Shown in pieces: positions 15,676 through 57,475 of a DNA stretch of 64,000 nt (position 1 is the stretch's first letter; every line of letters starts with the position of its first letter). Position numbers and translations under genes: made by a program. Where the stretch lies: assembly GCF_004798665.1 (NCBI RefSeq), contig NZ_CP039292.1, positions 3,348,001 to 3,412,000 on the forward strand, written 5' to 3'. A model generated the notes under the pieces. That model was not told where the DNA came from and searched no databases. It worked only from the letters and a program-made list of their open reading frames with translations. This stretch comes from Actinomyces procaprae (GTDB taxonomy: Bacteria; Actinomycetota; Actinomycetes; Actinomycetales; Actinomycetaceae).

Positions 15676-15755
15676 CACGACCTTGGGGTACGTTCCACGA
15701 CCCTCGGGTGGTCGTGGAACGTACCCCAAGGTCGTGCCATAGCACCAAGGTCGTG
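15676..15755. repeat. Mirrored ~20-bp array A (26-bp perfect stem)
   Basis: CACGACC recurs at 15,676 and 15,696. Its inverse GTCGTG then recurs at 15,711, 15,731 and 15,750, so the unit recurs every 19-20 bp and flips once. Bases 15,676-15,701 pair perfectly with 15,711-15,736 around a 9-base loop. It sits between convergent genes and could end both transcripts. Confidence 0.85.
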
Positions 15756-15780
15756 GAACGCACCCGAGCCGCCGGACCGC

Positions 15781-16524
15781 TCACGCCGTCGGGCCGCCTC
15801 CAAGCCGCACGCGCACGCCGGTGAGCACTCCGGCGTCGTCGGCCGCCAGCACCAGTGCGCACAGGAAGGCGGCCATGGTGTGTGACCAGTAGGGCACCCG
15901 CATGCCCATACATGCCCTTCCCGCGGATACGTCCGGTGAACCCATCTTCTCGTGGCGCAACTCCCAGCCCGCGGCATCGGCAACCAGGGCCAGCAGGTCA
16001 TCCATGGTGGAGAACGTGCCTCCAAGCCCGGTTACGGCGTGAGCGTCTTCCCGCCCCGCCACGGTGATCGTCACCGGACGCATGGCGGCCGGGCCGTGCA
16101 CCGGCAGCCGCTCCGCAATGCTGGTGACGAGGGAATGATCGTAGACGACCCGCTCCGCGGGGAATCTCAACGCCAGCCCCTGGAACGTGAATGGTCCGAC
16201 GTCCCGGCAGGCGGCGTAGGCGCATTCGCACACCAGGGAGATGGTGGCGGGTGTCAGCTCCCGCGACACCCCGACCTGGAACCAGCCGACGGCACCGTCA
16301 TCGACGAAGTCGTCGGCTGCGCCGGACGGCCTGCCCCAGAAGCCCTCCTCAATAGTCAGACCCGCGCAGTCGGCCGGGGGCAGCAGGTGCAGACCCCGGA
16401 TCGCCGCCTCGCCGACCAGGGCACCGTAGGCGGCGTCATCTGGCTCCGTGGCCGCAGCAGCAACTGCACCCTCGCGGTGTCCGAGCAGGCCGATCTCAAC
16501 CCCGGGCCCAACCGTGTCGTTCAT
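15781..16524 (-). CDS. Hypothetical protein
   Basis: 247 aa from ATG 16,524 (MNDTVGPGVEIGLLGH). A longer open frame extends upstream to 16,926 but runs through the repeat region and lacks a ribosome site. The protein has an Ala-rich N-terminal half and several cysteines (PPADCAGL, VCECAYAAC, FLCAL). No family is recognised. The C-terminus (MGMRVPYWSHTMAAFLCALVLA, then VRVRLGGG) looks like a folded beta/alpha segment. It is convergent with the sugar isomerase, separated by array A. Confidence 0.55.
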   Translation of the reverse strand: MNDTVGPGVEIGLLGHREGAVAAAATEPDDAAYGALVGEAAIRGLHLLPPADCAGLTIEEGFWGRPSGAADDFVDDGAVGWFQVGVSRELTPATISLVCECAYAACRDVGPFTFQGLALRFPAERVVYDHSLVTSIAERLPVHGPAAMRPVTITVAGREDAHAVTGLGGTFSTMDDLLALVADAAGWELRHEKMGSPDVSAGRACMGMRVPYWSHTMAAFLCALVLAADDAGVLTGVRVRLGGGPTA

Positions 16525-16999
16525 GGTTCGCAGTCTATGGATCCACTCATCGCAGCCCGGCGCGCGCCCCACGCGCCCCGGGTTAAGGGGCTCCCCCGGT
16601 TTGAGGGTGCGGGGGTGAGGGAGCTCGGGTGCGATTGTCGTGGGGGCGATGAGGTCGGTGCCGGGCTGATACGGCCGCGTCCAGGCCGACGGGGCCGTCC
16701 TCGGGCCGACCCAATGAGCCTGCCGCCAGCCCTGCGCCTGGAAGCGGGGCCATCTGCTACGCCACTTCATCGTCTGCAACGCCACTTCGGGGTTAACAAC
16801 GCCAGTTAACCGTCTGCTGAAGGCCCCAGAGGTATACAGCAGAACGTTAAGTAGCGTTGTTAACGACCAACCGGCGCAGCAGACACCCCAACGCCCCGAC
16901 CAGCACGCCAGCACGCCGACCAGCACGCCGCCCCTGCAAACCGGACGAGCACGTTAAGGGGGTGGAATTCGTGTCGGTGACCCGCGATACCGTGGACAC
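16525..16999. other. 475-bp gene-free interval
   Basis: Contains array B (16,753-16,864) and presumably the divergent promoters of the 247-aa gene and the HNH gene. Nothing else is recognised; the open frame on the minus strand here is judged a shadow. Confidence 0.5.
16753..16864. repeat. Mirrored 20-bp array B
   Basis: Units start at 16,753, 16,773, 16,793 and 16,813, exactly 20 bp apart: TCTGCTACGCCACTTCATCG, TCTGCAACGCCACTTCGGGG, TTAACAACGCCAGTTAACCG, then TCTGCTG. An inverted copy follows at 16,837-16,864 (CAGCAGAACGTTAAGTAGCG...). The third and fourth units and the inverted copy form imperfect 28-bp arms. It lies upstream of the DUF222/HNH gene. Confidence 0.75.
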
Positions 17000-19567
17000 A
17001 TGTACGAAGGCAACGGTGCGGAGCGGCGATCCGGCAGGGCATCCCCGACGGATCGTGCAGGGCTGCCCGGCACCGGGAGAGGGTCGATGGCGAGCGTTGC
17101 CTGGGATGCCTCATACGGGGAGGCGGCGTCCTGGCCCGGAGCCGAACAGGCCTACACGGCCGGGCCCGGGGTCCTACAGGAGCCCACGGCGCTGATCGCG
17201 CACCTGGCGGAAGTACCCGCAGGCGCGGGCCTGGCGAGCCTGGTTGAGGGCATGTTGGCCGGCATACTGGTCGCCGCCACCCCCAACGGTGACGCGGCTC
17301 GCTCCGCCGCCGGGGAGACCGCAACAAACGCAGGCGCGGAGCCTGCTGCAACCACCGCACACACCGCATGCGCCGCCGACACAGCGAGCGCCGCGGGCGC
17401 TGCCACCGCGGACGCTGTGGGCATCGCCGAGCTGGCGGAAATACTGGGAATTCCGGACACCGAGGCACTGTTCAACACCATCACGAGCCCGGCCGACCGC
17501 GCCCTGGCGCAGACCTCCGCACAGCGGGGCGTGGACTGGGGCGAGGGCACCGGCATCGACCGCCTGGCCGCGCTGGGCGCGCAGGTGCTCAGCGAACTGG
17601 TGGCGGCGTGCCACCGGCTGGTCGCCTGGGCGTCGTGGTGCGAAGGCGCAGCGGCGGCGTGCCTTGCCCGTACACCGGAGATGAACCGCGGCGCAGCTCC
17701 CTGGGGTCCGGACGGGCGGCTCGAATGCCTGGTGACTAAGGAGGAGCGCCGTTTCACCACCGGCGGGGAGATCGCCTGCCGACTCGGCACCACCCGCCAG
17801 AGTGCCTGTCGGATACTGGATCGAGGCGAGGCCCTGCTGCAACCCGAGTTCGCGGCCACCGAGACCCTGCATCGGGCCGGCCTGCTGGACACGGGCAAAA
17901 CCGCCCTGGTGGTGCAGCGCCTGGAGGATGCCGACGCGAGGGTGGCCAGGGCCGTGCAGGAGCAGGTCCTGCCCCGCGCATCCCGCAGGACGACGTCACA
18001 GCTGGCCAAGGACATTGACCGCGCCCTGGCCGCCTTGGACCCCGACGACGCCGACAGTCGCCGCAAGCGCAACCAGGCCCGCAGGCATGTCACGCGGCCC
18101 CGCCAGGCAGGCGAGGGCGTCCACGAAATGCGGCTGCTCCTGCCGAGCCTGGACGCGTTCCTACTGGATGCAACCCTGGACGCCGTCGCCGCCTCCGCCC
18201 GGGCAGCCGGGGATGAGCGTTCCCCGGCGCAGTTGCGGGCCGACGCCGTCGTCGGCATGACGCTTCGCACCCTGCAGTCCAGCCAGTACGCGGCATGTCG
18301 GCCACCCTTCACCACGCCCGAGCCGGCCGCGGCCAGCGGTGGGCCACCCGCACCGGCTACCGCACAGTTGCTGCCCGACGGCGTCCCCTTGGACGGGTTG
18401 CTGGCCGGCTTGAGCAGCCTCGTCGAGCCCGCCCGGCCCTGGTGGACGCCCTCCGGGGTAGATGCGGTCTTCCCGCCGCCGGGCATCACCATCAACGTAG
18501 ACGTCACCGTCCCCTTGGAACAGCTGCTCCCCGACGACGCCGACCCCAACGGGGACGACCCGCCCAACGGGGACGACCCGCCCAGTGGGTATGCGGCCGG
18601 GGACAGCCGACCGACCGCAGGCGATACCGCAGCCCGGCCCACGGGCGCCGGAGGCAGACAATCCGCCGCAGCCGGCGGGCGAAGCGCGCCCGAAGCACCC
18701 ACAGCCGGCGGGCTAAGTGTGCCCGAAGCACCCACAGCCGGCGGGCGAAGCGCGCCCACCGCAGGCCCCGCAGACACACCCTCGCGCAGCGGGAGCAGTG
18801 CGCCCACCGCGGTTGTGGGCGGCCACTGTCCCCTCCCCCACGGCGAGGCGGTCGCCGGCGCGGCGCCCGCAGCCGAGGTCACCATTGGGGTCAGTACGGT
18901 GCCGGTACCCGCCGCCACCGCCCGCGCCCTGGCAGCCGGTGGCGTCTGGCGCAGGCTTGTCACCGACCCGGTCTCCGGGACCGTAGTCGACGTGGGCCGC
19001 ACCCACTACCGGCCCCCGGTCGCCCTGCGTGAACTCGTGCAGGCCAGGGACGGCTCCTGCACGTTCCCGGGATGCACCACCCCCGCCGCCCGTTGCGACA
19101 CGGACCACATTCAACCCTGGGCCGAAGGCGGGGCCACCAGCCTGAGCAACCTCACCAGCCTGTGCCAGGCACACCACCGGCTCAAGCACACGCCCGGATG
19201 GAGCCTCAGCCGCACCGACTCCGGTGACATGACCTGGCACACTCCCAGCGGTGCTCGCTACCAGCGCAGCCCGGACGGGAGCATCACCCTGCTGGCCCAC
19301 AAGATCGGTCCCCGCCAACTGCTTGTCCCCGCCCAGAAGGTCCCCGCGCACCTCACCGACGCCGTTGACGACACCATCCTGGATCGTCTCCAGCACGGCC
19401 TCGACCTCTCTGCTCAGGACGCGAACCGTCGCGGCGCTCCCCCACAGGTCACCAGCCGCGGCCCCCGCCCCGGCCGACCCGTCGGCGCCTTCGAGTCCAC
19501 GCCCTACCCGCAGGCCCTGCACGACCTCGGCCTGGCCCCGCTGCTAGACGAGATTCCGCCCTTCTGA
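17000..19567 (+). CDS. DUF222 / HNH endonuclease domain protein (13E12-repeat family)
   Basis: Up to 855 aa. The DUF222 region is about residues 150-450 and has many Ala/Leu helices (LDRGEALLQPEF, ARVARAVQEQVL). A C-terminal HNH nuclease is at about 680-735: CTFPGCTTPAARCDTDHIQPW, then NLTSLCQAHHRLKH, with Cys pairs and His-Asn-His residues intact. Between them lies a low-complexity Pro/Gly/Ala insert (about 515-600) with internal repeats NGDDPP and a PTAGGRSAPEA-like unit. ATG 17,087 (GAGAGGG upstream) is an alternative start. The family is multicopy and mobile-like in actinobacteria; its substrate is unknown. Confidence 0.88.
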   Translation: MYEGNGAERRSGRASPTDRAGLPGTGRGSMASVAWDASYGEAASWPGAEQAYTAGPGVLQEPTALIAHLAEVPAGAGLASLVEGMLAGILVAATPNGDAARSAAGETATNAGAEPAATTAHTACAADTASAAGAATADAVGIAELAEILGIPDTEALFNTITSPADRALAQTSAQRGVDWGEGTGIDRLAALGAQVLSELVAACHRLVAWASWCEGAAAACLARTPEMNRGAAPWGPDGRLECLVTKEERRFTTGGEIACRLGTTRQSACRILDRGEALLQPEFAATETLHRAGLLDTGKTALVVQRLEDADARVARAVQEQVLPRASRRTTSQLAKDIDRALAALDPDDADSRRKRNQARRHVTRPRQAGEGVHEMRLLLPSLDAFLLDATLDAVAASARAAGDERSPAQLRADAVVGMTLRTLQSSQYAACRPPFTTPEPAAASGGPPAPATAQLLPDGVPLDGLLAGLSSLVEPARPWWTPSGVDAVFPPPGITINVDVTVPLEQLLPDDADPNGDDPPNGDDPPSGYAAGDSRPTAGDTAARPTGAGGRQSAAAGGRSAPEAPTAGGLSVPEAPTAGGRSAPTAGPADTPSRSGSSAPTAVVGGHCPLPHGEAVAGAAPAAEVTIGVSTVPVPAATARALAAGGVWRRLVTDPVSGTVVDVGRTHYRPPVALRELVQARDGSCTFPGCTTPAARCDTDHIQPWAEGGATSLSNLTSLCQAHHRLKHTPGWSLSRTDSGDMTWHTPSGARYQRSPDGSITLLAHKIGPRQLLVPAQKVPAHLTDAVDDTILDRLQHGLDLSAQDANRRGAPPQVTSRGPRPGRPVGAFESTPYPQALHDLGLAPLLDEIPPF

Positions 19568-19592
19568 CATTCCGCCCTGCTGACCGGTCGAC

Positions 19593-20834
19593 TCAGGCCC
19601 CGAGCTCCTCGGCCACCAGCGCCATCTCCTCATCCGCCCGACGCCGCAGCTCCCGGTGCCGGGTCACGGAGGCCAGCGACACTTGAGTCACAGCCTCCGC
19701 CACCATCAACGCGCCAAAGACGATCATGCCGCGGCGCAGGTACCCGGTCCGCTCGCGCCGACGCACCGCATAGCCGATCAGCGCACTGCCGACCCCCGCC
19801 TCCAGGCCGAAACCGGCCCGCACGATCCAGGGCTTGTCGGTGACGAAGCGGACATACGACTGCCACGACGCCGATCCCGGCACCGAGGGGTCCTGCAGCA
19901 TCAGCCCGACCGAACGCCCCACGGCATTCGACAGTCCACGCGGCTCATGCACCACCGCCCCGGGCGCCTCAGCAGGCGCCAGCCGCCCAGTGAGCACCAT
20001 CGCCACCCAGTCCGGAAGGCCGAGCGCATCCACCAGGGCCACCAGTCCGTCCAACCCGGGCGTGGAGAAGGCCTCCGCCACCGCCTCAGCGTCAGCACCC
20101 GGCACCGTGTCTGCCACACGGGAGACATCCGTGGAGTCCGTCAGCAGCTCCTCCACGAGCTTGCGCAACGCCGGCCCGGGCTCCGCCACGCCGCCCCACA
20201 CGTACCTTGAGGTCATGCCCCAGGAGAAGACGGCGTCGTCCTCACTCTCCCCAGTGGTGACCGCGCGCACGGCGATGTCACGCGTATCCACGCTCAGCAC
20301 CAGGGCGGGCAGGGACTCCTCATCCCAGCCGAAGGTGCCCAGCTCGTTGCCCTCACCGGCATACATGACGATGCGCCGGTCCAGCGCGGGCAGGGAAATG
20401 ACGGCGAGCGGGCGCTCCAGCAGCGTCGCCTGCAACGGCACCATGTATGCGCTCAACGGCGAGACGACCACGGTGCGGGACGCATCCGGGGACTGCGCCG
20501 CCACATCCGGCAGCGCGACGTCGTCGGGCAGGGCATTGAAGGAGGCGGGGCCGATGGTGACATCCCCGGAGAACTCGCGCGCGAGGGACTCCACCAGCTC
20601 ACTGATACGAATTCCGCCCATCACACCGCCGCGCGACGGCGGCGTCACGGCCACGCGCCCATCAGCGTCGGCCAGCAGGGTCAAGGACAGCAGGTGGGGG
20701 GTCTCCGGGTACCACTCGAGGCGGGCGACGACGCGATCCTCCTCCAACCGCGCGGCGACCGCGTCCGGCTGGGTTCCGGGCACCACGAGCACGCCCTCGG
20801 TGCGGTTCCAGCGCTGTGCGGGGTCCTGAGCCAT
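19593..20834 (-). CDS. Actinobacterial hypothetical protein
   Basis: 413 aa, beginning MAQDPAQRWNRTEG. The N-terminal half is beta-rich (HLLSLTLLADADGRVAVTPP; RTVVVSPLSAYMVPLQ; RRIVMYAGEGNELGTFGWDEE). The C-terminal half contains one or two possible hydrophobic segments (GSALIGYAV, GMIVFGALMVAEAVTQV) and a charged tail. No known domain recognised. Transcribed after a terminator hairpin that separates it from rlmB, so it probably has its own promoter in 20,835-20,920. Confidence 0.6.
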   Translation of the reverse strand: MAQDPAQRWNRTEGVLVVPGTQPDAVAARLEEDRVVARLEWYPETPHLLSLTLLADADGRVAVTPPSRGGVMGGIRISELVESLAREFSGDVTIGPASFNALPDDVALPDVAAQSPDASRTVVVSPLSAYMVPLQATLLERPLAVISLPALDRRIVMYAGEGNELGTFGWDEESLPALVLSVDTRDIAVRAVTTGESEDDAVFSWGMTSRYVWGGVAEPGPALRKLVEELLTDSTDVSRVADTVPGADAEAVAEAFSTPGLDGLVALVDALGLPDWVAMVLTGRLAPAEAPGAVVHEPRGLSNAVGRSVGLMLQDPSVPGSASWQSYVRFVTDKPWIVRAGFGLEAGVGSALIGYAVRRRERTGYLRRGMIVFGALMVAEAVTQVSLASVTRHRELRRRADEEMALVAEELGA

Positions 20835-20921
20835 GAAGGCCTCCTAGTCGAATGGTGACGACCGTCGTCCGCCGGCCCGTCCGCACGACGGGCGGGGACA
20901 CGACCATTGTGTCAGCATAGA

Positions 20922-20945
20922 GCCTCCCGGTCAGCCCCGGGAGGC
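20922..20945 (-). terminator. Terminator hairpin downstream of rlmB
   Basis: GCCTCCCGG / CCGGGAGGC with a 6-base loop, just past the rlmB stop in the direction of transcription. Confidence 0.6.
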
Positions 20946-20983
20946 CCCGATAGTCACCGGCAGTCCGGCTGAGCCGCGACGAG

Positions 20984-21979
20984 CTACGCGCCCGCAGCCG
21001 CTCGACGACGCAGCCGATCAACCTCATACAGGGCGATACCGGTGGCCACGGCGGCGTTGAGGGACTCCACCGTTCCGGCGATCGGAATGGAGACCAGCAG
21101 GTCGCAGGTCTCCCGGACAAGCCGCGACAACCCGCTGCCCTCGGCACCCGTGACCACCACCAGCGGGGCATCCGCCAGGTTCAGCTCCTCCACCGCCGTG
21201 GTGGCCCGCCCGTCCAGGCCGACGACGAAGCACCCCTCCCGCTTCAGGGCCTGCAGGCTGCGCACCAGGTTGGTCTCCCGGGCCACCGGCACCCGCGCGG
21301 CGGCGCCGGCGGACACCTTCCAGGCGGCGGCGTTGACACCCGCGGAGCGGCGCTCGGGCACGATCACGCCGTCGGCGCCGAAGGCCCCGGCCGAGCGCAG
21401 CACAGCACCGAGATTATGCGGGTCGGTCACCTGGTCCAGCGCCACCAGCAGCGGGGTGTGCCCGGCCTCGCGGGCGCGATCCAGCAGGTCGCGGGCGAGC
21501 ACGTACTCGTAGGCGGGCACCTCAATGGCCACCCCCTGGTGGGCGGCGCCGTCGGTGAGCGCCTCCAGGTCCAGCCTGGTGGCCTCCACCACCGGCGCAC
21601 CGACCAGTGCCGCCCGGCGTACGACGGCGTTCAGGCGGTCATCGTCCTGCGCCGAGGAGGCCATGAACACGCGCGTGATGGGCACCCGCGCGCGGGCCGC
21701 CTCCGCCACCGCGTTGCGGCCGCAGATGATCTCGTGGTCCCCGGGGACGCCGAAGCGCCGCTTGGCGTCCTCCAGGCGCCCGGCGTGGGTCGGCTGGGCG
21801 GCACGCGACTCGGCAAGTGCCTTGGCGCGCGCCTTCGGATGACCGACGCGGTCTTCGGCCTTGGGCGTGGGGCCCTTCCCCTCCAGGCCGCGGCGGCGCA
21901 CACCACCGGAGCCCTTGAGTGGGGCCTTCTTCTTGCCGGACCTGCGCATGGCGCCGTGCCGCTGGTCGTTTCCTGCCAT
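20984..21979 (-). CDS. rlmB: 23S rRNA (guanosine-2'-O-)-methyltransferase RlmB
   Basis: 331 aa. SpoU/TrmH family. A basic N-terminal extension (about 1-80, KKK/RRR-rich) precedes the substrate-binding domain (EIICGRNAVAEAARARVPI...). The SPOUT domain then carries LVALDQVTDPHNLGAVLRSA (motif 1), VVTGAEGSGLSRLV (motif 2) and IPIAGTVESLNAAVATGIAL (motif 3). RlmB methylates G2251 in 23S rRNA at the ribosomal peptidyl-transferase loop. It follows cysS by 91 bp in the ispF-cysS-rlmB order common in actinobacteria. Confidence 0.93.
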   Translation of the reverse strand: MAGNDQRHGAMRRSGKKKAPLKGSGGVRRRGLEGKGPTPKAEDRVGHPKARAKALAESRAAQPTHAGRLEDAKRRFGVPGDHEIICGRNAVAEAARARVPITRVFMASSAQDDDRLNAVVRRAALVGAPVVEATRLDLEALTDGAAHQGVAIEVPAYEYVLARDLLDRAREAGHTPLLVALDQVTDPHNLGAVLRSAGAFGADGVIVPERRSAGVNAAAWKVSAGAAARVPVARETNLVRSLQALKREGCFVVGLDGRATTAVEELNLADAPLVVVTGAEGSGLSRLVRETCDLLVSIPIAGTVESLNAAVATGIALYEVDRLRRRAAAGA

Positions 21980-22050
21980 CGTGGACTTCCTATTCTGCTG
22001 CGGCCAGTGGCCGGGGTTACGGAAAGTGGGTTTGCTAGGCGTCGGGCGCC

Positions 22051-23625: not shown

Positions 23626-24228
23626 CTACGCCTGCGGCACCGGCCAGACCAGGGCGGTGGCGACTGCCGCCAGACCCACCTCACGCCCCAGGAAGCCCAG
23701 CTGGTCCGTCGTCGTCGCGGAGAATGCGACGGCGGCGCCGGCGGCCGCGCTCAGGGCGGCGGTCGCCTCCTCCATGCGGTCCGCCACGCGCGGGCGAGCA
23801 CCGATCAGCTGAACGGCGATGTTCCCGATCTCAAAGCCGGCCTCGCGCACACGCTTGGCCGTCTCCGTCAGCAGCGCCGCGCCGGAAGCGTCCTTCCACT
23901 CCGGCTCGTCGGTGCCGAAGTTGGCGCCCAGGTCCCCCAGCCCGGCGGCGGACAGCAGGGCGTCGCAGCAGGCGTGCGCGACGACGTCGCCGTCGGAGTG
24001 CCCCTCCAGGCCGACCTCATCGGGCCAGTTCAGGCAGGCCAGGTTCAGCGGAGTGTCGGAGTCGGCGGCGGCGAAGGCGTGTACATCGGTGCCGATGCCG
24101 GTGCGGGGCGTCCACTGGGCGATCTGCGCGCGATAGGCGGCGACGTCGGCCTCGGTGAACGTGGCGGTGCCGGCCGAGTGGCGGGCGGTGCGCTGCGTGG
24201 TGGCGTCGGTCTCGGGTTCATCACTCAT
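23626..24228 (-). CDS. ispF: 2-C-methyl-D-erythritol 2,4-cyclodiphosphate synthase
   Basis: 200 aa, with an N-terminal extension of about 40 residues before the ~160-aa enzyme. [10 protein letters not shown] carries the metal-binding Asp and His; [17 protein letters not shown] is the signature; [11 protein letters not shown] is the conserved C-terminal segment. It catalyses the fifth step of the MEP isoprenoid pathway. ATG 24,228 is taken as start; a longer frame to 24,303 overlaps the opposite gene's leader. No ispD is adjacent. Confidence 0.95.
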
Positions 24229-24343
24229 GCGGGACAGTCTGCCGTATATCTCCTCGTTACTCCTACAACCTACCGTTCCCCCGCGCGTCGGCGGCGGACG
24301 CAACCGCCTTGACGACGCGGCCCGGAGCCGGACAATTCGGCCT

Positions 24344-25627
24344 GTGGCTCACGCACGTACGCACAGCAGCGCGCCGACCGCACAAGCGCCGTCGGCGGCC
24401 TCACTGTGCGCGCTGCACGAGGACGCCACCTGCCGTTCCTGCCCACACTTGTCGACCCCGCTGCCCGCCCAACTGGCGCACAAGCAGGCCCGAATCGCCG
24501 CACTGCTGGCCGACGGCGCCAACCCCGTGCCGGCCGACGCCTGGCAGGAGCCGGCCGCGAGCGCCCCGGCGCGCTTCCGCAACAAGGCGAAGATGGTGGT
24601 CTCCGGCACGGCCGCCGCCCCGGTACTGGGCGTGCTGGGGAGCGGCGGCCGCGGCGTCGACCTGCGCGAATGCCCCCTGCACATGCCGCAGATCGAGGCC
24701 GCACTGCCCGTGCTCGCGCGCACCATAACCGCGCTCGGCCTGACGCCCTACGACGTGCCGGCGCGCCGGGGAGAGCTGAAGCACCTGCTGGTGACGGCCT
24801 CCCCGGACGGAGACCTGATGGTGCGCTTCGTGCTGCGCAGCCGTCGGCACGTGGAGGACCTGCGCACCGCCCTGCCCGGGCTGCAACATGACCTGCCGAC
24901 GCTGGCTGTGCTCAGCGCCAACATTCAACCGGTGCACCAGGCGATCATCGAGGGGCCGGAGGAGGTCGTGCTCACCGACACCGACCGCCTACTCATGCGG
25001 CTGCGGCTGCCGGCACCGGCCGACGGCGGGGCGCGCGCCCCCGTGGCGGGTGCGGCGCGGGCGGGCGCACGCGAGCTGCCGCTGTACCTGCCCACGCGCT
25101 CCTTCTTCCAGACCAATACCGCCATTGCCGAGCAGCTGTACGCGACCGCCCGCGCCTGGGCCGACGCCGACACCGGGACGGCCGGGCGCCCGCAGCGGGT
25201 GTGGGACCTGTTCTGCGGCGTCGGCGGCTTCGCCCTGGCACTGGCCGGACCGGGGCGAGCCGTGCGGGGCGTGGAGGTGTCGGCGGCGGCTATAGACGGC
25301 GCCCGGGCCGCGGCCCGCCTGATGAAGCTGCCGGCGGAGTCGGCGCGCTTCGAGGCCGGCGACGCCTCCGTGCTGGATCCGGGCGCCGGGCCCGCACCGG
25401 ATCTGCTCGTGGTCAACCCGCCGCGGCGCGGTATCGGGGCGGAGCTGGCCGGCCGCATCGAGGCCTCGGGGGCGGAGCGGGTGCTGTACTCCTCCTGCAA
25501 CCCGGGGAGCCTGGTGGCGGACCTGGCGCGGATGCCGTCCCTGCGGGTGCGCCGGGCCCGCCTGTTCGACATGTTCCCCCACACCGACCACGCCGAGGTC
25601 CTCGTCTCCCTCCGCCGAGATCGGTAG
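24344..25627 (+). CDS. rlmC: RlmC/RumA-like 23S rRNA (uracil-C5) methyltransferase
   Basis: About 427 aa. The N-terminal cysteines [15 protein letters not shown] fit the [4Fe-4S] cluster of the RlmC/RlmD group. The C-terminal Rossmann domain has [11 protein letters not shown] (SAM), [11 protein letters not shown] and the catalytic YSSCNPGSL. No TRAM domain precedes it, which favours RlmC (U747) over RlmD. GTG 24,344 is the likely start in an open frame that begins at 24,155; the ribosome site is weak. Its last codons (CGA GAT CGG TAG) lie inside the first unit of the 23-bp repeat, so the repeat supplies the stop codon. Confidence 0.82.
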
Positions 25628-25679
25628 AAGTTACGTACCGAGATCGGTAGAAGTTACGTACCGAGGTCGGTAGATATGG
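25615..25679. repeat. Triple 23-bp repeat, copy C
   Basis: Units CCGAGATCGGTAGAAGTTACG(TA) at 25,615 and 25,638, then a shortened third unit CCGAGGTCGGTAGATATGG at 25,661. The same three-unit layout, ending the same way, occurs at 55,835. The ACCGAGATCGGT core is itself palindromic. The first unit overlaps the 3' end of rlmC. Confidence 0.9.
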
Positions 25680-30472: not shown

Positions 30473-30526
30473 GCGGCCACAGTAGCCAAACAGACCCGAT
30501 GATCACAATCCGGCTACATACGAGGC

Positions 30527-30614
30527 GTCGAGGTCGGTCGAAGCCTCGCAACTTCGACCGACCTCGACGGTAACAACAACCGATCTCGGTGGTTATATCA
30601 ACCGATCTCGGTGG
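30527..30614. repeat. Mirrored ~22-bp array D
   Basis: GTCGAGGTCGGTCGAAG (30,527-30,543) pairs perfectly with CTTCGACCGACCTCGAC (30,552-30,568) around an 8-base loop. Two more inverted units, ACCGATCTCGGTGG, start at 30,579 and 30,601, 22 bp apart. The core ACCGAGATCGGT is shared with arrays C and F. It lies just downstream of the PTS IID stop and could terminate that operon. Confidence 0.85.
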
Positions 30615-30621: not shown

Positions 30622-31479
30622 CTATAGGCCGAGCCAGCCGGTCCAGGCACCGAGGATGCCGATGACGAACATGCCCAGAATGATCCACAGGGCATTGATC
30701 TTCTTGTTCAGCAGCCACATGCACACGAAGGTCAGCCCCAGAGCGGCCACACCGGGCAGCAACTGATCGAGGATGTTCTGCAAGGTGGTCTCGGTGACGG
30801 TGCCGTCGTCGGCGGTCACCGAGGAGATCACCCCGGGGAAGTTGATCGTCGTCCATTTGGCCACCAGGGCGCCCATGACGAACAGACCGGTGATGGCGGC
30901 GATCTGGGTGATGCGCTTGAGCTGGCCGCCACCGACCTCCGTCACCATCGCGGTACCGCGCTCATAACCCCACTTCAGGCCGTACCAGCGCACCAGGATG
31001 CGGATGATGTTGATCCCGAAGAAGTAGACCAGCGGGCCGAGCCAGGAGCCGGTCAGCGCCAGAGACGCACCCAGTGCGCCGAGCACGGGCCGTACAGTGC
31101 CCCAGAAGATGGGGTCGCCGACGCCGGCGAGCGGGCCCATGAGGCCGACCTTGACGTTGGTGATCGTGTCATCGCCGATGTCCTCACCCTTGGCGCGCTG
31201 CTCCTCCATGGCGGCGGTGACACCGAAGACCACCGAGGAGATCCAGGGGTGGGTGTTGTAGAACTCCAGGTGGCGCTTGAGCGCCGCCGCCTGCTCGGTC
31301 TTATTGGAGGGGTAGAACTTCCGGATCGCCGGCATGAGCGTGATGCAGAACCCCATGGCCTGCATACGCTCGAAGTTGAACGAGCCCAGCAGGAACGTGG
31401 AGCGCCAGTACATGCTCCGCAGATCGCGGTCGGTGAGCATGCGCTCGCGCGCGGGCGCGGCGTCGATTTCAGTGGACAT
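30622..31479 (-). CDS. PTS mannose-family IID component
   Basis: 285 aa. LTDRDLRSMYWRSTFLLGSFNFERMQAMGF is the characteristic N-terminus. VGLMGPLAGVGDPIFWGTVRPVLGALGASLA is the conserved membrane loop. The C-terminal membrane helices end in NALWIILGMFVIGILGAW. With IIC it forms the membrane channel of a mannose/fructose/sorbose-type phosphotransferase. Last gene of the IIA-IIB-IIC-IID operon. Confidence 0.95.
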   Translation of the reverse strand: MSTEIDAAPARERMLTDRDLRSMYWRSTFLLGSFNFERMQAMGFCITLMPAIRKFYPSNKTEQAAALKRHLEFYNTHPWISSVVFGVTAAMEEQRAKGEDIGDDTITNVKVGLMGPLAGVGDPIFWGTVRPVLGALGASLALTGSWLGPLVYFFGINIIRILVRWYGLKWGYERGTAMVTEVGGGQLKRITQIAAITGLFVMGALVAKWTTINFPGVISSVTADDGTVTETTLQNILDQLLPGVAALGLTFVCMWLLNKKINALWIILGMFVIGILGAWTGWLGL

Positions 31480-49353: not shown

Positions 49354-49532
49354 AGCTCGCCCTGCGGCCCACCAGTTCCAAGACTGACAGCCACGAGACC
49401 TGGGCGAACGCCGTGTCCGCCGTATCCTGGGGCACCGTTTGCGAGCCGGTGGATGTGGGCAGGATCGAGAATGACGACCACACCTACCGGGGCATCATCA
49501 AGGTTGCCGGATTCCCGGCTCTTCCGGTTTGA
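49354..49532 (+). pseudogene. Possible 3' end of a lost gene
   Basis: An open frame beginning inside the peptidase gene reads NQLLKLALRPTSSKTDSHET, then WANAVSAVSWGTVCEPVDVG and DDHTYRGIIKVAGFPALPV, and stops inside an ISL3-like end. The composition looks protein-like, but no start or family was found. It may be a remnant truncated by an insertion. Confidence 0.3.
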
Positions 49533-49980
49533 GGGTGTGTTGGGCTGGGGGTTTGTGTGTTGACGCGACGGTTCGTACCTTCGCGTGAGGGTTCGTATGT
49601 TCTGGTCGGCGATTCGTACCGTCGTGCGACGGTTCGTACGGTAGGGGTACGTAGCGTCGTAAGAAGTGCCGAATCGTTGGTGCCAAGTGCCGAATCGTCA
49701 GGCGAAGTGCCGAACCGTCATCCGGGGCGCGCGGGCGAACACGCCAGGCCCGCACCCCGAGCGCTCACGCCTGCGCCCGGGGCCCGTCGAGTAGGGCACC
49801 GAGCTTGCCGCCGTGCGTCGTCAATGGCGCCAGCCCGGTCCAGCACCCAGATGATCTCAACGGCCCCAACGAATCAGCGCAAGCCAGCACCACCCACCGA
49901 CAACAACCTCACCAACCCGACAACGACCACCCCCACCGCAGCCCCGACCCCAACCACCACACCCACAAACCGGAAGAGCC
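49517..49980. mobile_element. 464-bp segment with ISL3-like ends, no transposase
   Basis: Left end GGCTCTTCCGGTTTGAGGGT at 49,517. The right end, read inward, is GGCTCTTCCGGTTTGTGGGT from 49,980. These ends resemble the ISL3 end at 61,779 (GGCTCTTCGCGTTTGAGGGT). No 8-bp target duplication is seen. It may be a non-autonomous (MITE-like) or internally deleted ISL3 element. Array E lies inside it. Confidence 0.6.
49571..49719. repeat. Mirrored ~20-bp array E
   Basis: TTCGTA cores at 49,572, 49,592, 49,613 and 49,633 (spacing 20, 21, 20) preceded by G/A-rich RCGR. Inverted CGAA(T/C)CGT cores follow at 49,670, 49,691 and 49,711 (spacing 21, 20), each within AAGTGCCGAAYCGT. Four forward and three inverted units around one centre. 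Confidence 0.85.
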
Positions 49981-50922: not shown

Positions 50923-51408
50923 TCAGGCGGCGGCGTCGCTCTTCGGGCCGCCGATCTTCGCCGCGATCTCAACGAAGAGACGCAGGATCAGGATGTTGAT
51001 CCCGATCTGCGGGATGGCGACCAGCAGGTTCAGCACGAAGTCCCCGAAGTTGAAGTAGACGCTGCCGTCGTAGCTGGAGTGGTAGTAGGTCGCGTCGAAT
51101 GCGCCGAACACCCAGGACACCAGGTACAGGATCAGACCCAGGGTGAAGACCGTCTTGCCGTACTTGGAGGCGAAGTCGCGTGCGCCGTCCATCAGGTTGC
51201 TCATGAACGACTCGGAGGAGGGCTGGGCGTATCCGCCGCTGTAGGGGTTCTGCTGGAACTGGCCCGCCTGCGGCTGCCCGGCCTGCGCGGGCTGGAACTG
51301 CGTCGGCTGCTGCGCCTGCTGGGGGTACTGCTGCGGGTTGTAGCTGCCCGGGGCGGATGCGGCCGACGGCGGGATGTAGGGCTGTCCGGGGTTGGGGGGC
51401 TGAGTCAT
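50923..51408 (-). CDS. DUF4282-like membrane protein
   Basis: 161 aa. A Pro/Gln/Tyr-rich cytoplasmic N-terminus (about 1-65) is followed by FASKYGKTVFTLGLILYLVSWVF and FGDFVLNLLVAIPQIGINILILRLFVEIAAKI, two or three membrane helices in the pattern of DUF4282 proteins. Such proteins are common in Gram-positive actinobacteria; role unknown. Confidence 0.7.
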   Translation of the reverse strand: MTQPPNPGQPYIPPSAASAPGSYNPQQYPQQAQQPTQFQPAQAGQPQAGQFQQNPYSGGYAQPSSESFMSNLMDGARDFASKYGKTVFTLGLILYLVSWVFGAFDATYYHSSYDGSVYFNFGDFVLNLLVAIPQIGINILILRLFVEIAAKIGGPKSDAAA

Positions 51409-51534
51409 GCGCCTAGTTCCTTCACTTTCTGATACTGAAGCAATGTCAGCCTACCGCCCCGCAGGCAAGAGAATCACGACCTGAGGGGCGTCTCACCTGC
51501 GAGAACGGTCTCGCTTCGCGCTCGCCCGGATCTC

Positions 51535-52038
51535 CTACCAGGAGCGGCGCAGCACGATAGCGGTGCCGGGACGGCCGGGAATGCCGCCGGACGACCTCCC
51601 GCTCGGGGTGCCGGCCCGCACGTCCGCACGGCTGCGGGCACGCCGCCCCGGAGTCACCGGGACGACCTGCACCTCGCCGTCGGCGGCCGCGGCGAAGACC
51701 CGCTCGACGGCGGCCTGGCGGGCGCGCAGGGAGCGGTTCTCCTCCTCCAGCCGCTCCAGGCGCCGCTCCAGGTCGAGGATCCGGCGGATACCCTCCAGGT
51801 TGATTCCCTCCTGGCTCAGCGCCTGCACGCGCCGCAGCTGCTGCACGTCCCGGTGGGAGTAGCGCCGCCCCCGCCCGGAGGTGCGGGCGGGGGTGACCAG
51901 CCCCAGCCGGTCGTACTGCCTGAGGGTCTGGGGGTGCATGCCGGCCAGCTCCGCAGCCACGGAGATGACATAGACGGCCCGCTCGTCGGCATCCTCGGCG
52001 AGGAAGTCGACGCCCCGACCCGTCCGCCGCATGCTCAC
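51535..52038 (-). CDS. hspR: Heat-shock repressor HspR (MerR family)
   Basis: 167 aa from GTG 52,038, which overlaps the dnaJ stop (GTGA). [25 protein letters not shown] is the MerR helix-turn-helix; [21 protein letters not shown] is the wing; a coiled-coil part ([22 protein letters not shown]) follows. The C-terminal ~60 residues are Arg/Gly-rich. HspR represses dnaK and clpB by binding HAIR sites with DnaK as co-repressor (established in Streptomyces and Mycobacterium). Confidence 0.93.
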
Positions 52039-53069
52039 TGCGCCGCCTCCTGGGCGAGGCCCGCACGCGGGTCGGCCTCCATCGCCTCATCGAAGGCCTC
52101 CAGGGCGGCCCGGGCCTCCTTGGAGAGCTTCTTGGGCACGGCCACCTGCACGGTGACCAGCAGGTCGCCGGTCTTCTTGGAGGTGGCCACGCCCTTGCCG
52201 CGCAGGCGCAGCACGGTGCCGGAGGAGGTGCCGGGCTTGATGCGCACGCGGCTGGTGCCACCGTCAAGGAGAGGCACCTCGACGGTGGCGCCGAGGGCCG
52301 CCTCCTTTAGGGTGACCGGCAGGTCCATGCGCAGGTTGGCGGGGTTGACCGGATCAATCGAGTACACGGGGTGCTTGGCCACCGAGATGGTCACCACCAT
52401 GTCCCCGTTCTCCCCGCCGCCCGTGCCGGGACGCCCCTTGCCGCGCAGGCGGATCTTCTGCCCGTCGTGCACGCCGGCGGGGATGCGCACGGTGATGGTG
52501 CGCCCGTCGGCGGTGAGCTCGGCCAGAGTGCCGGACACGGCGTCGCGCAGGGACAGGGTGGCGTTGGTGAGCACGTCCGGCCCCTTGACCGGCTGCGGCT
52601 GAGAGGAGAACCCGCCGAAGCCGAAGGGACCGCGGCCGCGCCGCCCGCCGCCCGCGGCGGCGCCACCGGCAGCACCCCCGAACATGCGCAGCAGGTCCTC
52701 CAGGTCCTCCTGCGAGGCGCCGCCGGAGGTCGAGTAGCGCACATTCGGGCCACCGCCGCCGAACATCGAGGAGAAGATGTCCTCGAAGCCGGCGCCGGCG
52801 CCTCCGGTACCGGAGGTGAAGCGCGCACCGCCGCCCGCCATGGAGCGGATGGCGTCGTACTGCTGGCGCTCCTTGGCGTCTGACAGCACGGCGTAGGCCT
52901 CCCCGATCTCCTTGAACTTCTCCGCCGCGGCGGCGTCACCGGGGTTGCGATCGGGGTGGTACTTCTTGGCGAGAGCGCGGTAGGCCTTCTTGATGGCGGC
53001 GGAGTCGGCGTCCTTGGCGACGCCGAGGACCGCGTAGAAGTCCTTGGTCATCCAGTCCTGACTGGCCAT
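52035..53069 (-). CDS. dnaJ: DnaJ/CbpA-type co-chaperone without zinc finger
   Basis: 344 aa. J domain at about 8-75 with [11 protein letters not shown] (HPD), then a Gly/Phe-rich part (about 95-180, [24 protein letters not shown]), then a two-lobed C-terminal substrate domain ([47 protein letters not shown]). The CxxCxGxG zinc fingers of class A DnaJ are absent, so it is a class B protein, although it sits in the dnaK operon. Start ATG 53,069 is 69 bp after the grpE stop. Confidence 0.9.
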
Positions 53070-53138
53070 GGCTCACCGCCTCCTTTCTGTTCCTGCTTCT
53101 CCTGCAATTCGTGTGCTTGCTCCGTTACGGGTACCGCC

Positions 53139-53804
53139 TCAGGCCGGGTTGGCGACCTGCACCCGGGCCGCGCGCACCACCCGCTCGCCGAGCCTGTAAC
53201 CGGGCTGGAGGACCAGCGCGATGCTCGGCTCGGTCACCTCGGTGGACTCCGTGGCCATCAGGGCCTCGTGGAGCTTGGGGTCGAACACGTCCCCGGCCTC
53301 GCCGAAGCGCACCAGGCCGAACTTGTCGGCGAGGATCTGCTCCAGCTTGCCGGCGGTCGTGGCGAAGGTGCCGGTCAGGTCGCCGTGCTGGCGGGCCAGC
53401 TCGATCTCGTCAAGCACCGGAATGAGGGTCTCGACGACGCTCGCCTGCCCCGCCTCGCGGTGCCCGGCGGCGCTCTCACGGGAGCGGCGCACGAAGCCCT
53501 GGTACTCCTGCTGGAGGTTGTACAGGTCCGCGCGGGCACGGGCCAGCTCGTCGGCCGCCTGGGCGGCCTGCGCCCGGGCCTGCTCCAGCTCCGAGGGCGC
53601 CTCAGCGGCGCCCGCCTCGGCGGCGTCGCCCTGGGCCGCGGAGCCCAGGTCGACGCCGTCGAAGGCGGACTCGATCTCGTCGGCCAGCGCCGGGTCGATC
53701 CCGCCGGGCCGTCCGGCGTCAGGACCGGACGCGCCCTGCGCGCCCCCCTGCCCGGAGTCGTGCTCGGTGCCCTCCTCCGGGCGCTTGTCCGGGTCGGTGC
53801 TCAC
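53139..53804 (-). CDS. grpE: Nucleotide exchange factor GrpE
   Basis: 221 aa. A disordered acidic N-terminus (to about 75) and long coiled coil ([25 protein letters not shown]) are followed by the beta-domain ([35 protein letters not shown]). It releases ADP from DnaK. The start overlaps the dnaK stop by ATGA. Confidence 0.96.
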
Positions 53805-55660
53805 TTGGCGTCCTCGTCGTCAACGATCTCGTCGTCCACGACGTCGTCGTCCTCGGAGGAGGAGGACTGCGCCTGGGAGGCTCCGGCGTCGGCGGCCTGG
53901 GCGGCCTGCTCGGAGGCGTACAGGGCCTGGCCGATCTTCTGGGAGACCTCGTTCAGCTTCTCCTGCGCGGCCTTGACCGGCTCGATGTCAGTGCCCTCGA
54001 GGGCCTTCTTGAGCTCGTCGACGGCGGCGGACACCTCGGCGCTGACGTCCTGCGGCAGCTTGTCCTTGTTCTCCTTCAGGAGCTTCTCGATGGAGTAGAC
54101 CTGCTGCTCCGCCATGTTGCGGGTCTCGGCCTCCTCGCGGCGCTTCTTGTCCTCCTCGGCGTGGGCCTCGGCCTCCTTGACCATGCGGTCGATGTCCTCC
54201 TTGGGCAGGGCGGAGCCGCCGGAGATGGTCATCGACTGCTCCTTGCCGGTGCCGCGGTCCTTGGCGGACACGTGCACGATGCCGTTGGCGTCGATGTCGA
54301 AGGAGACCTCGATCTGCGGGATGCCGCGGGGGGCCGGGGCGATACCGGTCAGCTCGAAGGTGCCCAGGGGCTTGTTGTCGCGGGCGAACTCGCGCTCGCC
54401 CTGGTAGACCTGGATGAGCACCGACGGCTGGTTGTCCTCGGCGGTGGAGAAGACCTCGGAGCGCTGGGTCGGGATGGCCGTGTTGCGCTCGATCAGCTTG
54501 GTCATCACGCCGCCCTTGGTCTCGATACCGAGGCTGAGGGGGGTGACGTCGATGAGCAGCACGTCCTTGCGGTCACCCTGGATGACGCCGGCCTGCAGGG
54601 AGGCGCCGACGGCGACGACCTCATCGGGGTTGACGCCCTTGTTGGGCTCCTTGCCACCGGTCAGCTCACGCACGACGTCGGTGACGGCCGGCATACGGGT
54701 GGACCCGCCGACCAGGACCACGTGGTCGATCTCCGACAGGGAGACGCCGGCGTCCTTGATGACGTTGTGGAAGGGCACCTTGGTGCGCTCGAGCAGGTCC
54801 GCGGTCATCTCCTCGAACTGGGCGCGGGTGAGGCGCTCGTCGAGGTGGATGGGGCCGGCCTCGCTCATGGACAGGTACTGCAGGTTGATGTCGGTGCTCA
54901 GCGCGCTGGAGAGCTCCTTCTTGGCCTGCTCGGCGGCGTCCTTGAGGCGCTGCATGGCGATCTTGTCCTTGGACAGGTCCACGCCGGACTTATCCTTGAC
55001 CTGCTTGACCAGCCACTTGACGATGCGGGCGTCCCAGTCGTCGCCGCCCAGGCGGTTGTCGCCGTTGGTGGCGCGCACCTGGATGGTGGAGAAGCCGTCC
55101 TCGTCCTTGCCGACCTCCAGCAGGGAGACGTCGAAGGTGCCGCCACCCAGGTCGAAGACCAGGATGAGCTCATCCTCCTTGCCCTTGTCCAGGCCGTAGG
55201 CGAGGGCCGCGGCGGTGGGCTCGTTGACGATGCGGTCCACGGTGAGGCCCGCGATGGTGCCGGCCTCCTTGGTGGCCTGGCGCTCGGCGTCGTTGAAGTA
55301 GGCGGGGACGGTGATGACGGCGTTGGTGACGCTCTCACCCAGGTAGGCCTCGGCGTCGGCCTTCAGCTTGGCCAGGATGCGGGCGCTGATCTCCTGGGCG
55401 GTGTACTTCTTGCCGTCGATGTCGACGGTCCAGTCGGTGCCCATGTGCCGCTTGACGGAGGAGATGGTGCGCTCGACGTTCGTGACGGCCTGGCGCTTGG
55501 CGACCTCGCCGACCAGCACCTCACCGGACTTGGAGAAGGCGACGACGGACGGCGTGGTGCGCCCACCCTCCGCGTTCGGGATGATGGTGGGCTCGCCACC
55601 CTCGAGGACGGCGATGGCGGAGTTGGTGGTTCCGAGGTCGATGCCGACGGCACGTGCCAT
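53801..55660 (-). CDS. dnaK: Chaperone DnaK (Hsp70)
   Basis: 619 aa from [22 protein letters not shown]. Hsp70 signatures: [40 protein letters not shown]. The substrate-binding domain (about 360-480) includes [17 protein letters not shown]; the lid and an acidic C-terminal tail close the protein. ATG 55,660 has AAGGAG 8 bases upstream; a longer frame to 55,750 crosses the operator region. First gene of dnaK-grpE-dnaJ-hspR. Confidence 0.98.
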
Positions 55661-55690
55661 GGGTGCTCCTTGATGTCTCGTAGTGTTGAA

Positions 55691-55774
55691 GTTGAGCGGT
55701 ATGCACTCAGGATTGCGGTTGAGCGCGGTCTTGTCAACTCCACGCGCCACAACCTTGAGTCTGATGCACTCAAC
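55691..55774. promoter_or_regulatory. Two HAIR-like HspR operators of the dnaK operon
   Basis: Site near the gene: GTTGAGC-N7-ACTCAGG (55,691-55,711, 31-51 bp from ATG). Distal site: CTTGAGT-N7-ACTCAAC (55,754-55,774, one mismatch to the consensus CTTGAGT-N7-ACTCAAG). These fit HspR autoregulation of the operon. Confidence 0.85.
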
Positions 55775-55834
55775 CTTGAGCGGGGCGGTTCTATTCCGCG
55801 GCGCCCATGACCCGGATTACACCCCTCCCCCTCG

Positions 55835-55899
55835 CCGAGATCGGTAGATCTTACGTACCGAGGTTGGTAGAAGTTACGTACCGAGGTCGGTAGATATTG
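55835..55899. repeat. Triple 23-bp repeat, copy F
   Basis: Units CCGAGATCGGTAGATCTTACG(TA) at 55,835, CCGAGGTTGGTAGAAGTTACG(TA) at 55,858, and short CCGAGGTCGGTAGATATTG at 55,881. Same order and 3' ending as copy C at 25,615, in the same orientation on the + strand. Confidence 0.9.
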
Positions 55900-56020
55900 C
55901 CGCACGCCATGCCGACCACCACTCCCACGCCACCACCCGCCAACCCAACACCCTCCCAGACACCAAGACCCCCATGTCAGCACGATCCACCTCTTGACAC
56001 GCCACCCGAACCGGCGCACC

Positions 56021-56052
56021 ATATCGATTATCGAGCGATCGATATTCGATAT
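56021..56052. promoter_or_regulatory. 32-bp AT-rich palindrome, candidate operator for the XRE regulator
   Basis: ATATCGA...TCGATAT outer arms with an inner near-palindrome ATCGAGCGATCGAT; 28 of 32 positions are self-complementary. A TTGACA lies at 55,994-55,999. It is unusually AT-rich for this genome. It precedes the DUF2975-XRE pair by about 40 bp. Confidence 0.6.
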
Positions 56053-56093
56053 GCCGCGCGCATCCGCACCGGCAGCCGGAACCGAGGACCACC

Positions 56094-56837
56094 ATGAGCA
56101 ACGCCGCCACGACCAGCAGCCCGTCCCCTAGCAGCCCGTCCCCAACCCACCGCCTCCGCTCAGCCATCGCCAATGCCTCCGCAGAGCGGGAGAACCCATG
56201 GGGCGTTCCCGGACGGATCTCAACCGTGTGCCTTCTAGGCTTCGTCGCACTCATGACCCTCGCCGAGCCATCCATAGCCCTTCTGGGCATCGTGCGCCAC
56301 GGCTTCCTGCGCGCATCCGTCATCGCCACGCCCGGACCGATCGATCTCGACGGCGAATACACGGGCGTCCTTGAGGACACCGGCGTCGAGCGCACCATCC
56401 TCTACGGCTACCACCGCCCGCCCGGCTGGGCCTTGGCGCTCGAAGCCACCCTCATCGTCGCATACGCCGCACTCGTGGTCACCATGCTGATCCTCTTCGC
56501 CAAGACAATCGCCCCGACCAGCCCATACTGGCAGGGCGACGGCGACCCCTGGGAGCGGATACGACGCAACGCCCGCCATCTGCGCTGGACGGTTTTCGCC
56601 GCCGTCGGCATCTACGCGCTGTTCGGGGAGGTGATCCCGGGACTCCTCTCCCCATCCGACGACGCCATCAGCCAGCTGCATGTAGGCGGATTCTGGGAAG
56701 GACTGCCCTTCACCATGCTGGTCGGAGTCTGGACCCTGACCTACTTCACCGATGCGCTCCATCGCCTATCCCGGCGCACCACCGCACTCGCCGTCGAGAA
56801 TGCCGATCTGCGCGAGGAAACGGAGGGCCTCGTATGA
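56094..56837 (+). CDS. DUF2975-like membrane protein
   Basis: 247 aa with four hydrophobic segments: VCLLGFVALMTLAEPSIALLGIV, LEATLIVAYAALVVTMLILF, LRWTVFAAVGIYALFGEVIPGLL and TMLVGVWTLTYFTDALHRLSRR. The last segment ends in a charged helix (NADLREETEGLV). This layout, followed directly by a small XRE regulator (ATGA overlap), is the usual DUF2975/YozG-like pair. Role unknown; possibly a membrane sensor for the regulator. Confidence 0.72.
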   Translation: MSNAATTSSPSPSSPSPTHRLRSAIANASAERENPWGVPGRISTVCLLGFVALMTLAEPSIALLGIVRHGFLRASVIATPGPIDLDGEYTGVLEDTGVERTILYGYHRPPGWALALEATLIVAYAALVVTMLILFAKTIAPTSPYWQGDGDPWERIRRNARHLRWTVFAAVGIYALFGEVIPGLLSPSDDAISQLHVGGFWEGLPFTMLVGVWTLTYFTDALHRLSRRTTALAVENADLREETEGLV

Positions 56838-57058
56838 GCGCGAGCGGTCAGGCCCGCGTGGTCTGCCACCTGGACCGCCTCCTGGAGCAGCGCGGCCTTA
56901 CGCTCGCAGCGCTGTCCGACCGAGTGGGCGTGACGGTGGCGAACCTGTCCGTACTGAAGAACGGGCGGGCCAAGGCCATCCGCTTCACCACCCTCACGGC
57001 GCTGTGCGACGCGCTCGACTGCACAGTTGGCGAACTACTGGAGGTGACCGACGCCTAG
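56834..57058 (+). CDS. Small XRE-family regulator (YozG-like)
   Basis: 74 aa, one HTH domain: LDRLLEQRGLTLAALSDRVGVTVANLSVLKNGRAKAIRFTTLTALCDALDCTVGELLE. It overlaps the DUF2975 gene by ATGA. It probably binds the AT-rich palindrome at 56,021 and represses its own operon (inference from context). Confidence 0.88.
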   Translation: MSASGQARVVCHLDRLLEQRGLTLAALSDRVGVTVANLSVLKNGRAKAIRFTTLTALCDALDCTVGELLEVTDA

Positions 57059-57475
57059 GCCGTGTCGCGAAAGTCGTTTGTGGTGGCGGGTCGGTGCCGA
57101 CGATATGGGTACCTCCGGGCGGGCAGGCCTGTGTGCTCGGTGAGGATCGTTGTGCGCGGTCAGGCGCCACGGCGTTCCCACGCCGCCCTGGTTGGACCGC
57201 TCACGCCCCGATGGACCGCTCACGCCCCGTTGGACCGCTCACGCCCCGTTGGACCGCTGTAGCCAGTGGCTAGGGCGGTCCAACGGGGGCACAGGGGTCC
57301 AACGGGAGGACGGCGGTCCAACGGGGGAAACAGGGCTCCCGCCGCCAGGGACACGACCCACACCGAGCAGTACAAAAGACGGTCAAACGACTGCGTGACG
57401 TCGGGCAGGCAACGGGGTTAGGCTGACATATGTAGTGCAGGTCACTTTCCCTTCCATCTCGATGAGGAGATCCCT
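57059..57475. other. 417-bp gene-free interval with array G
   Basis: Array G occupies 57,192-57,328. The MFS gene's promoter should lie in 57,330-57,470, where no clear -35/-10 was identified. Confidence 0.5.
57192..57328. repeat. Mirrored 19-bp array G
   Basis: Forward units TTGGACCGCTCACGCCCCG begin at 57,192, 57,211 (A for T), 57,230 and 57,249 (partial), exactly 19 bp apart. Inverted units containing GGTCCAACGGG begin at 57,276, 57,295 and 57,314, again 19 bp apart. The forward half is almost invariant; the inverted half keeps the core and varies in between. Non-coding by codon pattern. Confidence 0.92.

Follow-up and report, generated by a model that had tools for sequence, protein, structure and literature searches.

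Mirrored and one-way arrays of short repeat units in the intergenic spacers of Actinomyces procaprae

RESULTS

Arrays with a step of about 20 bp occur throughout the intergenic DNA

The intergenic spacers of Actinomyces procaprae carry arrays of short units repeated at a step of about 20 bp. We analyzed them in a window of 64 000 nt (bases 3348001–3412000 of the single-contig 3.6-Mb genome), which holds the five arrays A1–A5, and in a genome sample composed of this window and 60 systematic 20-kb stretches (1.264 Mb in total). The arrays are real and genome-wide, and each unit is part of a dispersed family. We distinguish two kinds of spacer modules that have the step in common: in class 1 (A1, A2, A4 and A5) the units are mirrored, in class 2 they run one way. 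A2 and A4 are the interiors of ISL3-like miniature inverted-repeat transposable elements (MITEs) and the A5 family is found, within an element, next to a Mutator-type transposase, while class 2 arrays are polar and mostly follow closely behind the stop codon of the gene with which they are oriented.

An original prediction had proposed five mirrored arrays in the window, and all five were found at or very near their predicted places; in every one of them the unit occurs in both orientations. For self-similarity at a fixed lag we defined a cluster as at least 14 self-matches in 15 and scanned 570 spacers of at least 80 bp (all spacers total 308 kb). We observed 28, 33, 17 and 37 clusters at lags 19, 20, 22 and 23, respectively, and further echo peaks at lags 38, 40–41 and 46. 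When these spacers were shuffled once with their dinucleotides preserved, no cluster appeared at any lag from 19 to 23, so that the arrays exceed composition-matched shuffles as anticipated, and coding DNA (954 kb, about three times the spacer length) gave 0, 1, 0 and 0 clusters at the four lags. With a looser scan, 121 of the 570 spacers yielded 153 arrays, a list that also includes ordinary low-complexity repeats, and among the strongly over-represented 12-mers listed the majority were array units at their own step.

The supposition that each array has a unit specific to its locus did not hold. The A5 unit has 111 genome-wide matches at no more than one mismatch versus 7 for a reversed control, and the units of A1, A2, A3 and A4 have relatives at other loci of the sample; the arrays are thus made of dispersed repeats, an outcome that the original prediction had named as speaking against itself. 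Its view of one architecture carried by several unrelated unit sequences was borne out. None of the arrays matched Rfam at gathering scores, and in the open-access literature searched, on Actinomyces repeats and more widely, nothing was seen on these units, the unit strings matching no paper.

Class 1 arrays are associated with insertion sequence ends

A2 (16753–16880), a mirrored array of about 20-bp units of the TCTGCWACGCCACTTC family, lies inside an ISL3-like MITE (16589–16951) with degenerate terminal repeats, whose 8-bp flanks GGTTAAGG and CGTTAAGG match at 7 of 8 positions as a target duplication. A4 (49564–49720), a mirrored array of the RCGRTTCG family with a similar step and a four-helix stepped hairpin, lies inside a second such element (49517–49980) with the terminal repeats GGCTCTTCCGGTTT; here the flanks match at only 3 of 8 positions and a target duplication is not recognizable. 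Using BLAST with the surroundings of A4, we found four other near-full-length copies of this repeat in the sample (84–91% identical). Altogether the sample contains 27 facing pairs of ISL3-like terminal inverted repeats, those of A2 and A4 included. The target duplication of ISL3 is 8 bp long, and 9 of the 27 facing end pairs show an 8-bp duplication at no more than one mismatch versus 0.56 expected on re-pairing (maximum 5). The same ends, with an exact duplication, enclose an ISL3 transposase domain (PF01610) in L060 (2150–4775); this element also contains a frame with an rve domain and has therefore probably taken an insertion. We take the terminal ends seen here to be of types typical for the ISL3 and IS256 families. 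A further unit family (CCGAGCACGACC) was seen within ISL3-like MITEs that also carry the A2 family (L009 12811–13464, L023 8381–9015 and L053 4935–5912).

A5 (57190–57330) is a mirrored 19-bp array of the CCCCGTTGGACCGCT family, built of four units, a short centre and three inverted units. A probable element surrounds it (57057–57400), the left end of which resembles the ends of other A5-family copies, while the right end near 57380–57398 is degenerate and was judged by eye. A5-family ends differ from the ISL3-like ones (CTAGGTCGTGTTGTGTGAGTCGTTTG). They are recognizable in several copies, and duplications were not recognized by eye. In L021 an A5-family array (5666–5774) precedes a Mutator-type transposase gene (5957–7225; PF00872, E 3e-124) and a family end follows the gene at 7386, the left end of this copy not being found by the scan. 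A lone exact A5-type unit (GGACCGCTCACGCC) is present at 15774–15787 of the window, at the 3′ end of a minus-strand gene (15781–16524), the stop codon of which it contains.

The original prediction had set the arrays apart from repetitive extragenic palindromic (REP) and MITE families, which the location of A2, A4 and the A5 family contradicts. A1 (15676–15765), a mirrored CACGACC/GGTCGTG array that forms a long hairpin between convergent genes, is the class 1 array around which terminal inverted repeats were looked for and not found.

On the two strands, A1–A5 have folding z-scores between −3.1 and −10.0. The four-helix stepped hairpin is kept in nine copies of the A4 family, in which 95.8% of the cells are paired, compared to 93.0% when partners were shuffled among the sequences and 21–45% when they were slid; a stepped hairpin, one of two possibilities originally considered, is thereby supported. 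When covariation within this family was examined, both partners had changed in 6 of 46 pairs, and 62 of 500 shuffles gave as many; cells changed on both sides amounted to 10 (reached by 1 of 500 shuffles) and the covariation score was reached by none of 500. Among the A2 copies, which are too alike, none of 37 pairs was doubly changed. By placement, the four mirrored families occupy 24 convergent, 19 co-directional and 2 divergent spacers (45 of 47 clusters could be assigned) versus about 11, 24 and 10 expected by spacer length.

Class 2 arrays are polar and mostly lie behind genes

Class 2 arrays consist of 2–9 direct units at 22 or 23 bp, each with the core CCGANNTCGG followed by 12–13 nt. 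Searching for CCGAGGTCGGTAG plus spacer, we found 52 arrays of at least two units in the sample, which corresponds to about one array per 18 called genes (940 genes, 75% coding, called with a crude caller made for this analysis). A3 (30526–30611, minus strand), which is located behind a phosphotransferase system (PTS) IID gene (30622–31479, minus strand), contains two tandem 22-bp units and then a hairpin of the same core with 18-bp arms (30526–30543 and 30552–30569); most of this array is assigned to class 2. Two further arrays of three 23-bp units on the plus strand, X25 (25615–25675) and X55 (55835–55895), belong to the family of A3; neither is mirrored and both had been overlooked in the original prediction. 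X25 is in sense orientation, and its first unit provides the TAG stop of a tRNA-methyltransferase-like gene (24155–25627).

Of the 51 class 2 arrays with genes on both sides, 39 are sense to the preceding gene, and every one of these begins no more than 100 nt from the stop of that gene (median 17), versus 7.1 sense-and-near cases on random placement (maximum 15 in 500). Where the flanking genes converge, 16 of 17 arrays are closer to the gene to which they are sense. The arrays are polar in their units as well: the centre of the first unit is GG in 28, GA in 22 and different in 2 of the 52 arrays, while that of the last unit is GG in 49, and in at least 10 of the 52 the last unit continues into GATATGGC or GATATGGT. 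In the 40 nt that precede an array, C exceeds G by 12.1 (n = 51), compared to 1.4 after other stops (n = 384). This C-rich leader has no special structure, and a hairpin just upstream of the arrays is not enriched (6% below a z-score of −2 versus 18% of 100 control stretches after stops).

Terminal repeats around class 2 arrays were not seen in this species. Carriage by known phages or plasmids was considered for the array in L012 (4740–4850), which had no match in either collection. In L054 (1262–1929) an ISL3-like MITE is inserted in the spacer between two class 2 units, its 8-bp flanks GATATAAC and GATACAAC being the unit spacer itself.

Class 2 units differ between species while some gene-end positions recur

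We next counted tandem core pairs across genomes. This genome contains 331, followed by G005 (168), G028 (85), G014 (56), G020 (44) and G012 (22); each of the other 31 genomes of the genus has at most 11, any match occurs in 20 of 59 genomes and reversed controls gave 0–1. With a slightly wider pattern we found 138 pairs in A. ruminicola, 127 in A. succiniciruminis, 85 in A. gerencseriae, 78 in A. israelii and 13 in one metagenome-assembled genome (MAG), and none in A. oris, A. naeslundii, oral taxon 170, A. bowdenii, A. bovis, A. timonensis and another MAG. Among named species, one protein of the window is closest to A. ruminicola and A. succiniciruminis (79% identity).

The core is constant between species, while centre and spacer are species-specific. 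A GG centre is present in 150 of 203 units of this species, in 4 of 110 of A. ruminicola (loci chosen by a pattern in which the spacer is partly fixed and the centre may hold G or A) and in 0 of 24 of A. gerencseriae, and the commonest spacers have also shifted species-wide. The expectation that units change while the architecture stays was therefore correct between species for the 22/23-bp family, but not otherwise. Pairwise identity did not favor concerted evolution, as the arrays of this species are no more alike among themselves (0.867) than they are to their A. ruminicola orthologs (0.889; 6 ortholog pairs). The number of units varies among copies of one family and between orthologous arrays.

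Gene-end orientation is found in other species as well: 31 of 40 arrays are sense and 8 antisense in A. ruminicola, 7 of 9 and 0 of 9 in A. gerencseriae. At the end of the methyltransferase gene that carries X25, arrays are present in A. ruminicola and A. succiniciruminis and a hairpin of the same core in A. israelii; neither array nor hairpin was seen there in nine other congeners inspected. For 7 of 11 A. ruminicola arrays we found an array at the orthologous gene end in A. procaprae, compared to 2 of 83 gene ends where A. ruminicola has none; these numbers are a hand merge of an array-based set (6 of 9) and a set of 87 ortholog pairs (one new positive and one new negative). The array-based set goes back to 27 A. 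ruminicola arrays, 25 of them with a sense open reading frame (ORF), of which 10 were matched in the sample and one was dropped because its match ends early at the end of a stretch. The unselected 87 pairs alone gave an array in both species once, in A. procaprae only twice, in A. ruminicola only three times and in neither 81 times, which is not significant (Fisher P = 0.13); in L046, one of the two A. procaprae-only pairs, A. ruminicola has a unit further downstream. A tree of array presence based on one marker protein was poorly resolved, with the A. succiniciruminis row misread owing to a shift of frame, and was not used.

The two classes are not fully separate, as four of the five class 2 arrays in G005 adjoin ISL3-like ends (judged by eye); the fifth directly follows a tRNA-Ala gene. 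A lag scan of ten other Actinomyces (46.7–80 kb each, one stretch with an N run) gave few arrays outside the bearers of class 2, and other units of about 20 bp were also present. One of these, a mirrored array in G034 (L186, 15136–15230), has an unrelated unit (GGGTGCAGAATGCGAGT), which suggests further unit families.

Other features of the window

The inverted repeat CTTGAGT-N7-ACTCAA at 55754–55774, before the Hsp70 gene (53801–55750, minus strand), resembles a HAIR element. Rfam matches were obtained for an msiK RNA (10913–10971, plus strand) directly before an ABC-transporter ATPase gene and for an ALIL pseudoknot (63324–63455, minus strand). A 24-bp tandem repeat of 17.5 copies with 90% matches lies within a coding frame at 5517–5935.

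DISCUSSION

The best joint reading of these data, which we hold with moderate confidence, is that class 1 arrays are two-way blocks carried by insertion sequences (IS) and class 2 arrays polar modules of transcript ends. Class 1 arrays can form a long stepped hairpin from either of their strands, the stem of which may block transcription in both directions, and such a block would allow the elements to settle between gene ends. A2 and A4, and probably A5 itself, would have spread as non-coding interiors of IS-derived elements. For class 2, the orientation and the short distance to stops argue for a role at transcript ends. The C-rich, G-poor leader may be a Rho-loading (rut-like) stretch and the array a pause, a roadblock, or a 3′-end structure or end mark. 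Termination, any role of Rho and a copying of units between loci are what we infer from the sequences.

Several observations weigh against this reading. T-tract matches in the window are restricted to the minus strand of A1, the only strand on which A1 has a T-rich tail, and to the end of the A4 MITE outside the array, and terminator-like matches are no more frequent than in shuffles (4 versus 3.5 and 2 versus 2.4). A1 and further class 1 arrays resemble intrinsic terminators in having strong stems close to the ends of genes, but these are stepped stems of repeated units that lack a T-tract except for A1 on one strand, and we rejected simple intrinsic terminators as an explanation. For class 2, 12 of the 51 arrays are not sense to the preceding gene, although some of these may reflect genes missed by the crude caller; they include X55, which lies upstream of the Hsp70 gene in a divergent spacer and departs from the gene-end rule. 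Folding is moderate and alike on both strands (mean z-score −2.42 sense and −2.34 antisense, n = 51), so that a one-strand hairpin does not explain the orientation, and X25 and X55 fold weakly. Arrays were found at 0 of 14 tRNA gene ends in this species and at 1 of 24 overall. The leader surplus, which reaches 8.1 in A. ruminicola and 8.0 in G020 (n = 2), falls to a weak 3.2 in A. gerencseriae (n = 9) and is missing from G005 (−3.0, n = 5), where only one of five arrays has a sense ORF; this weakens Rho as a general answer. Finally, many Actinomyces have no class 2, which must therefore be dispensable.

Rho-dependent terminators use Rho utilization (rut) sites, and class 2 resembles them in this species by the C-rich, G-poor unstructured stretch behind the stop, but differs in that the leader is followed by a repeat array and that two other species have a weak leader or none. 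The Rho of Mycobacterium tuberculosis, also an actinobacterium, is described as able to use various RNAs (PMC4167861).

The main rival, which we regard as possible though on the unlikely side, is that all arrays are selfish, being MITE interiors and a REP-like family that gathers behind genes where insertion is least harmful, with no function for the cell. It accounts well for class 1, the families of which are tied to IS-type ends, and is in line with the avoidance of divergent spacers, the patchy distribution of class 2 over the genus and the ISL3-like ends next to class 2 arrays in G005. For class 2 it does less well, since harm avoidance alone predicts neither the orientation nor the nearness to the sense gene in convergent spacers, nor the C-rich leader, and since terminal repeats were not seen around class 2 here, nor was the Y1 transposase known from REPs found. 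This transposase (PF01797) was detected in none of 25 Actinomyces, this species included and the array-bearing G028, G030 and G036 being outside that set, and in 1 of 39 genomes searched, with controls positive in 5 of 14; an origin of class 2 from REPs and their REP-associated tyrosine transposases (RAYTs) was thus rejected.

A more specific form of the transcript-end reading appears rather unlikely to us: class 2 would be a genus-specific device in which a Rho-loading leader is combined with units read by a dedicated putative trans-acting factor, the units turning over species-wide while the gene-end positions stay. Such turnover might come from co-evolution of arrays and factor or from copying of units between loci. 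We consider it improbable that class 2 arrays are DNA binding sites, palindromic CCGANNTCGG cores at about two helical turns bound by a protein that would serve as roadblock, insulator or nucleoid anchor; the 22–23-bp step and a near-palindromic core that stays constant while the spacers change would fit, but a bound dimer alone needs no one-way orientation to a gene, and no candidate protein emerged, no search aimed at one having been made. The local duplication and inversion of 20-bp blocks at each locus, as originally proposed, is very improbable, as only the change in unit number was observed, whereas the units are common to many loci and the mirror in A2, A4 and A5 belongs to a dispersed element instead of being made at each locus.

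Compared to known systems, class 1 is a set of MITE and IS interiors. A2 and A4 have the terminal inverted repeats, the family of 8-bp target duplications, the lack of a gene and the transposase element with the same ends that mark ISL3-type MITEs, but their interior is a mirrored array of variable unit number; likewise, the A5 family shares the L021 arrangement with IS256/Mutator-type elements (PF00872) and differs from them by its interior array. Class 2 is a new REP-like variant. In the passages of PMC3733652 considered here, REPs and bacterial interspersed mosaic elements (BIMEs) are described as palindromic units of 20–40 bp in high copy number that are grouped and for the most part follow genes, in spacers flanked by co-directional or convergent genes; of their super-families GTAG and CGTC, the CGTC type is said to have no known transposase, and Actinomyces is absent from these passages. 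Class 2 shares size, copy number, palindromic units and gene-end position with them, but its units are tandem direct repeats with a fixed step of 22/23 bp, it is oriented with genes and, in this species, it has a C-rich leader. REPs bear an unpaired GTAG or CGTC tag at one end; in A. procaprae and A. ruminicola the core is followed by GGTAG, which the A. gerencseriae spacers lack.

If class 2 arrays end transcripts, they would represent a polar 3′-end module made of repeats, unlike the hairpin-plus-U model, that is altered unit by unit between species. Even if they are selfish, they would offer a good natural case for studying the homogenization of short repeats over a bacterial chromosome in which the known REP transposase was not found.

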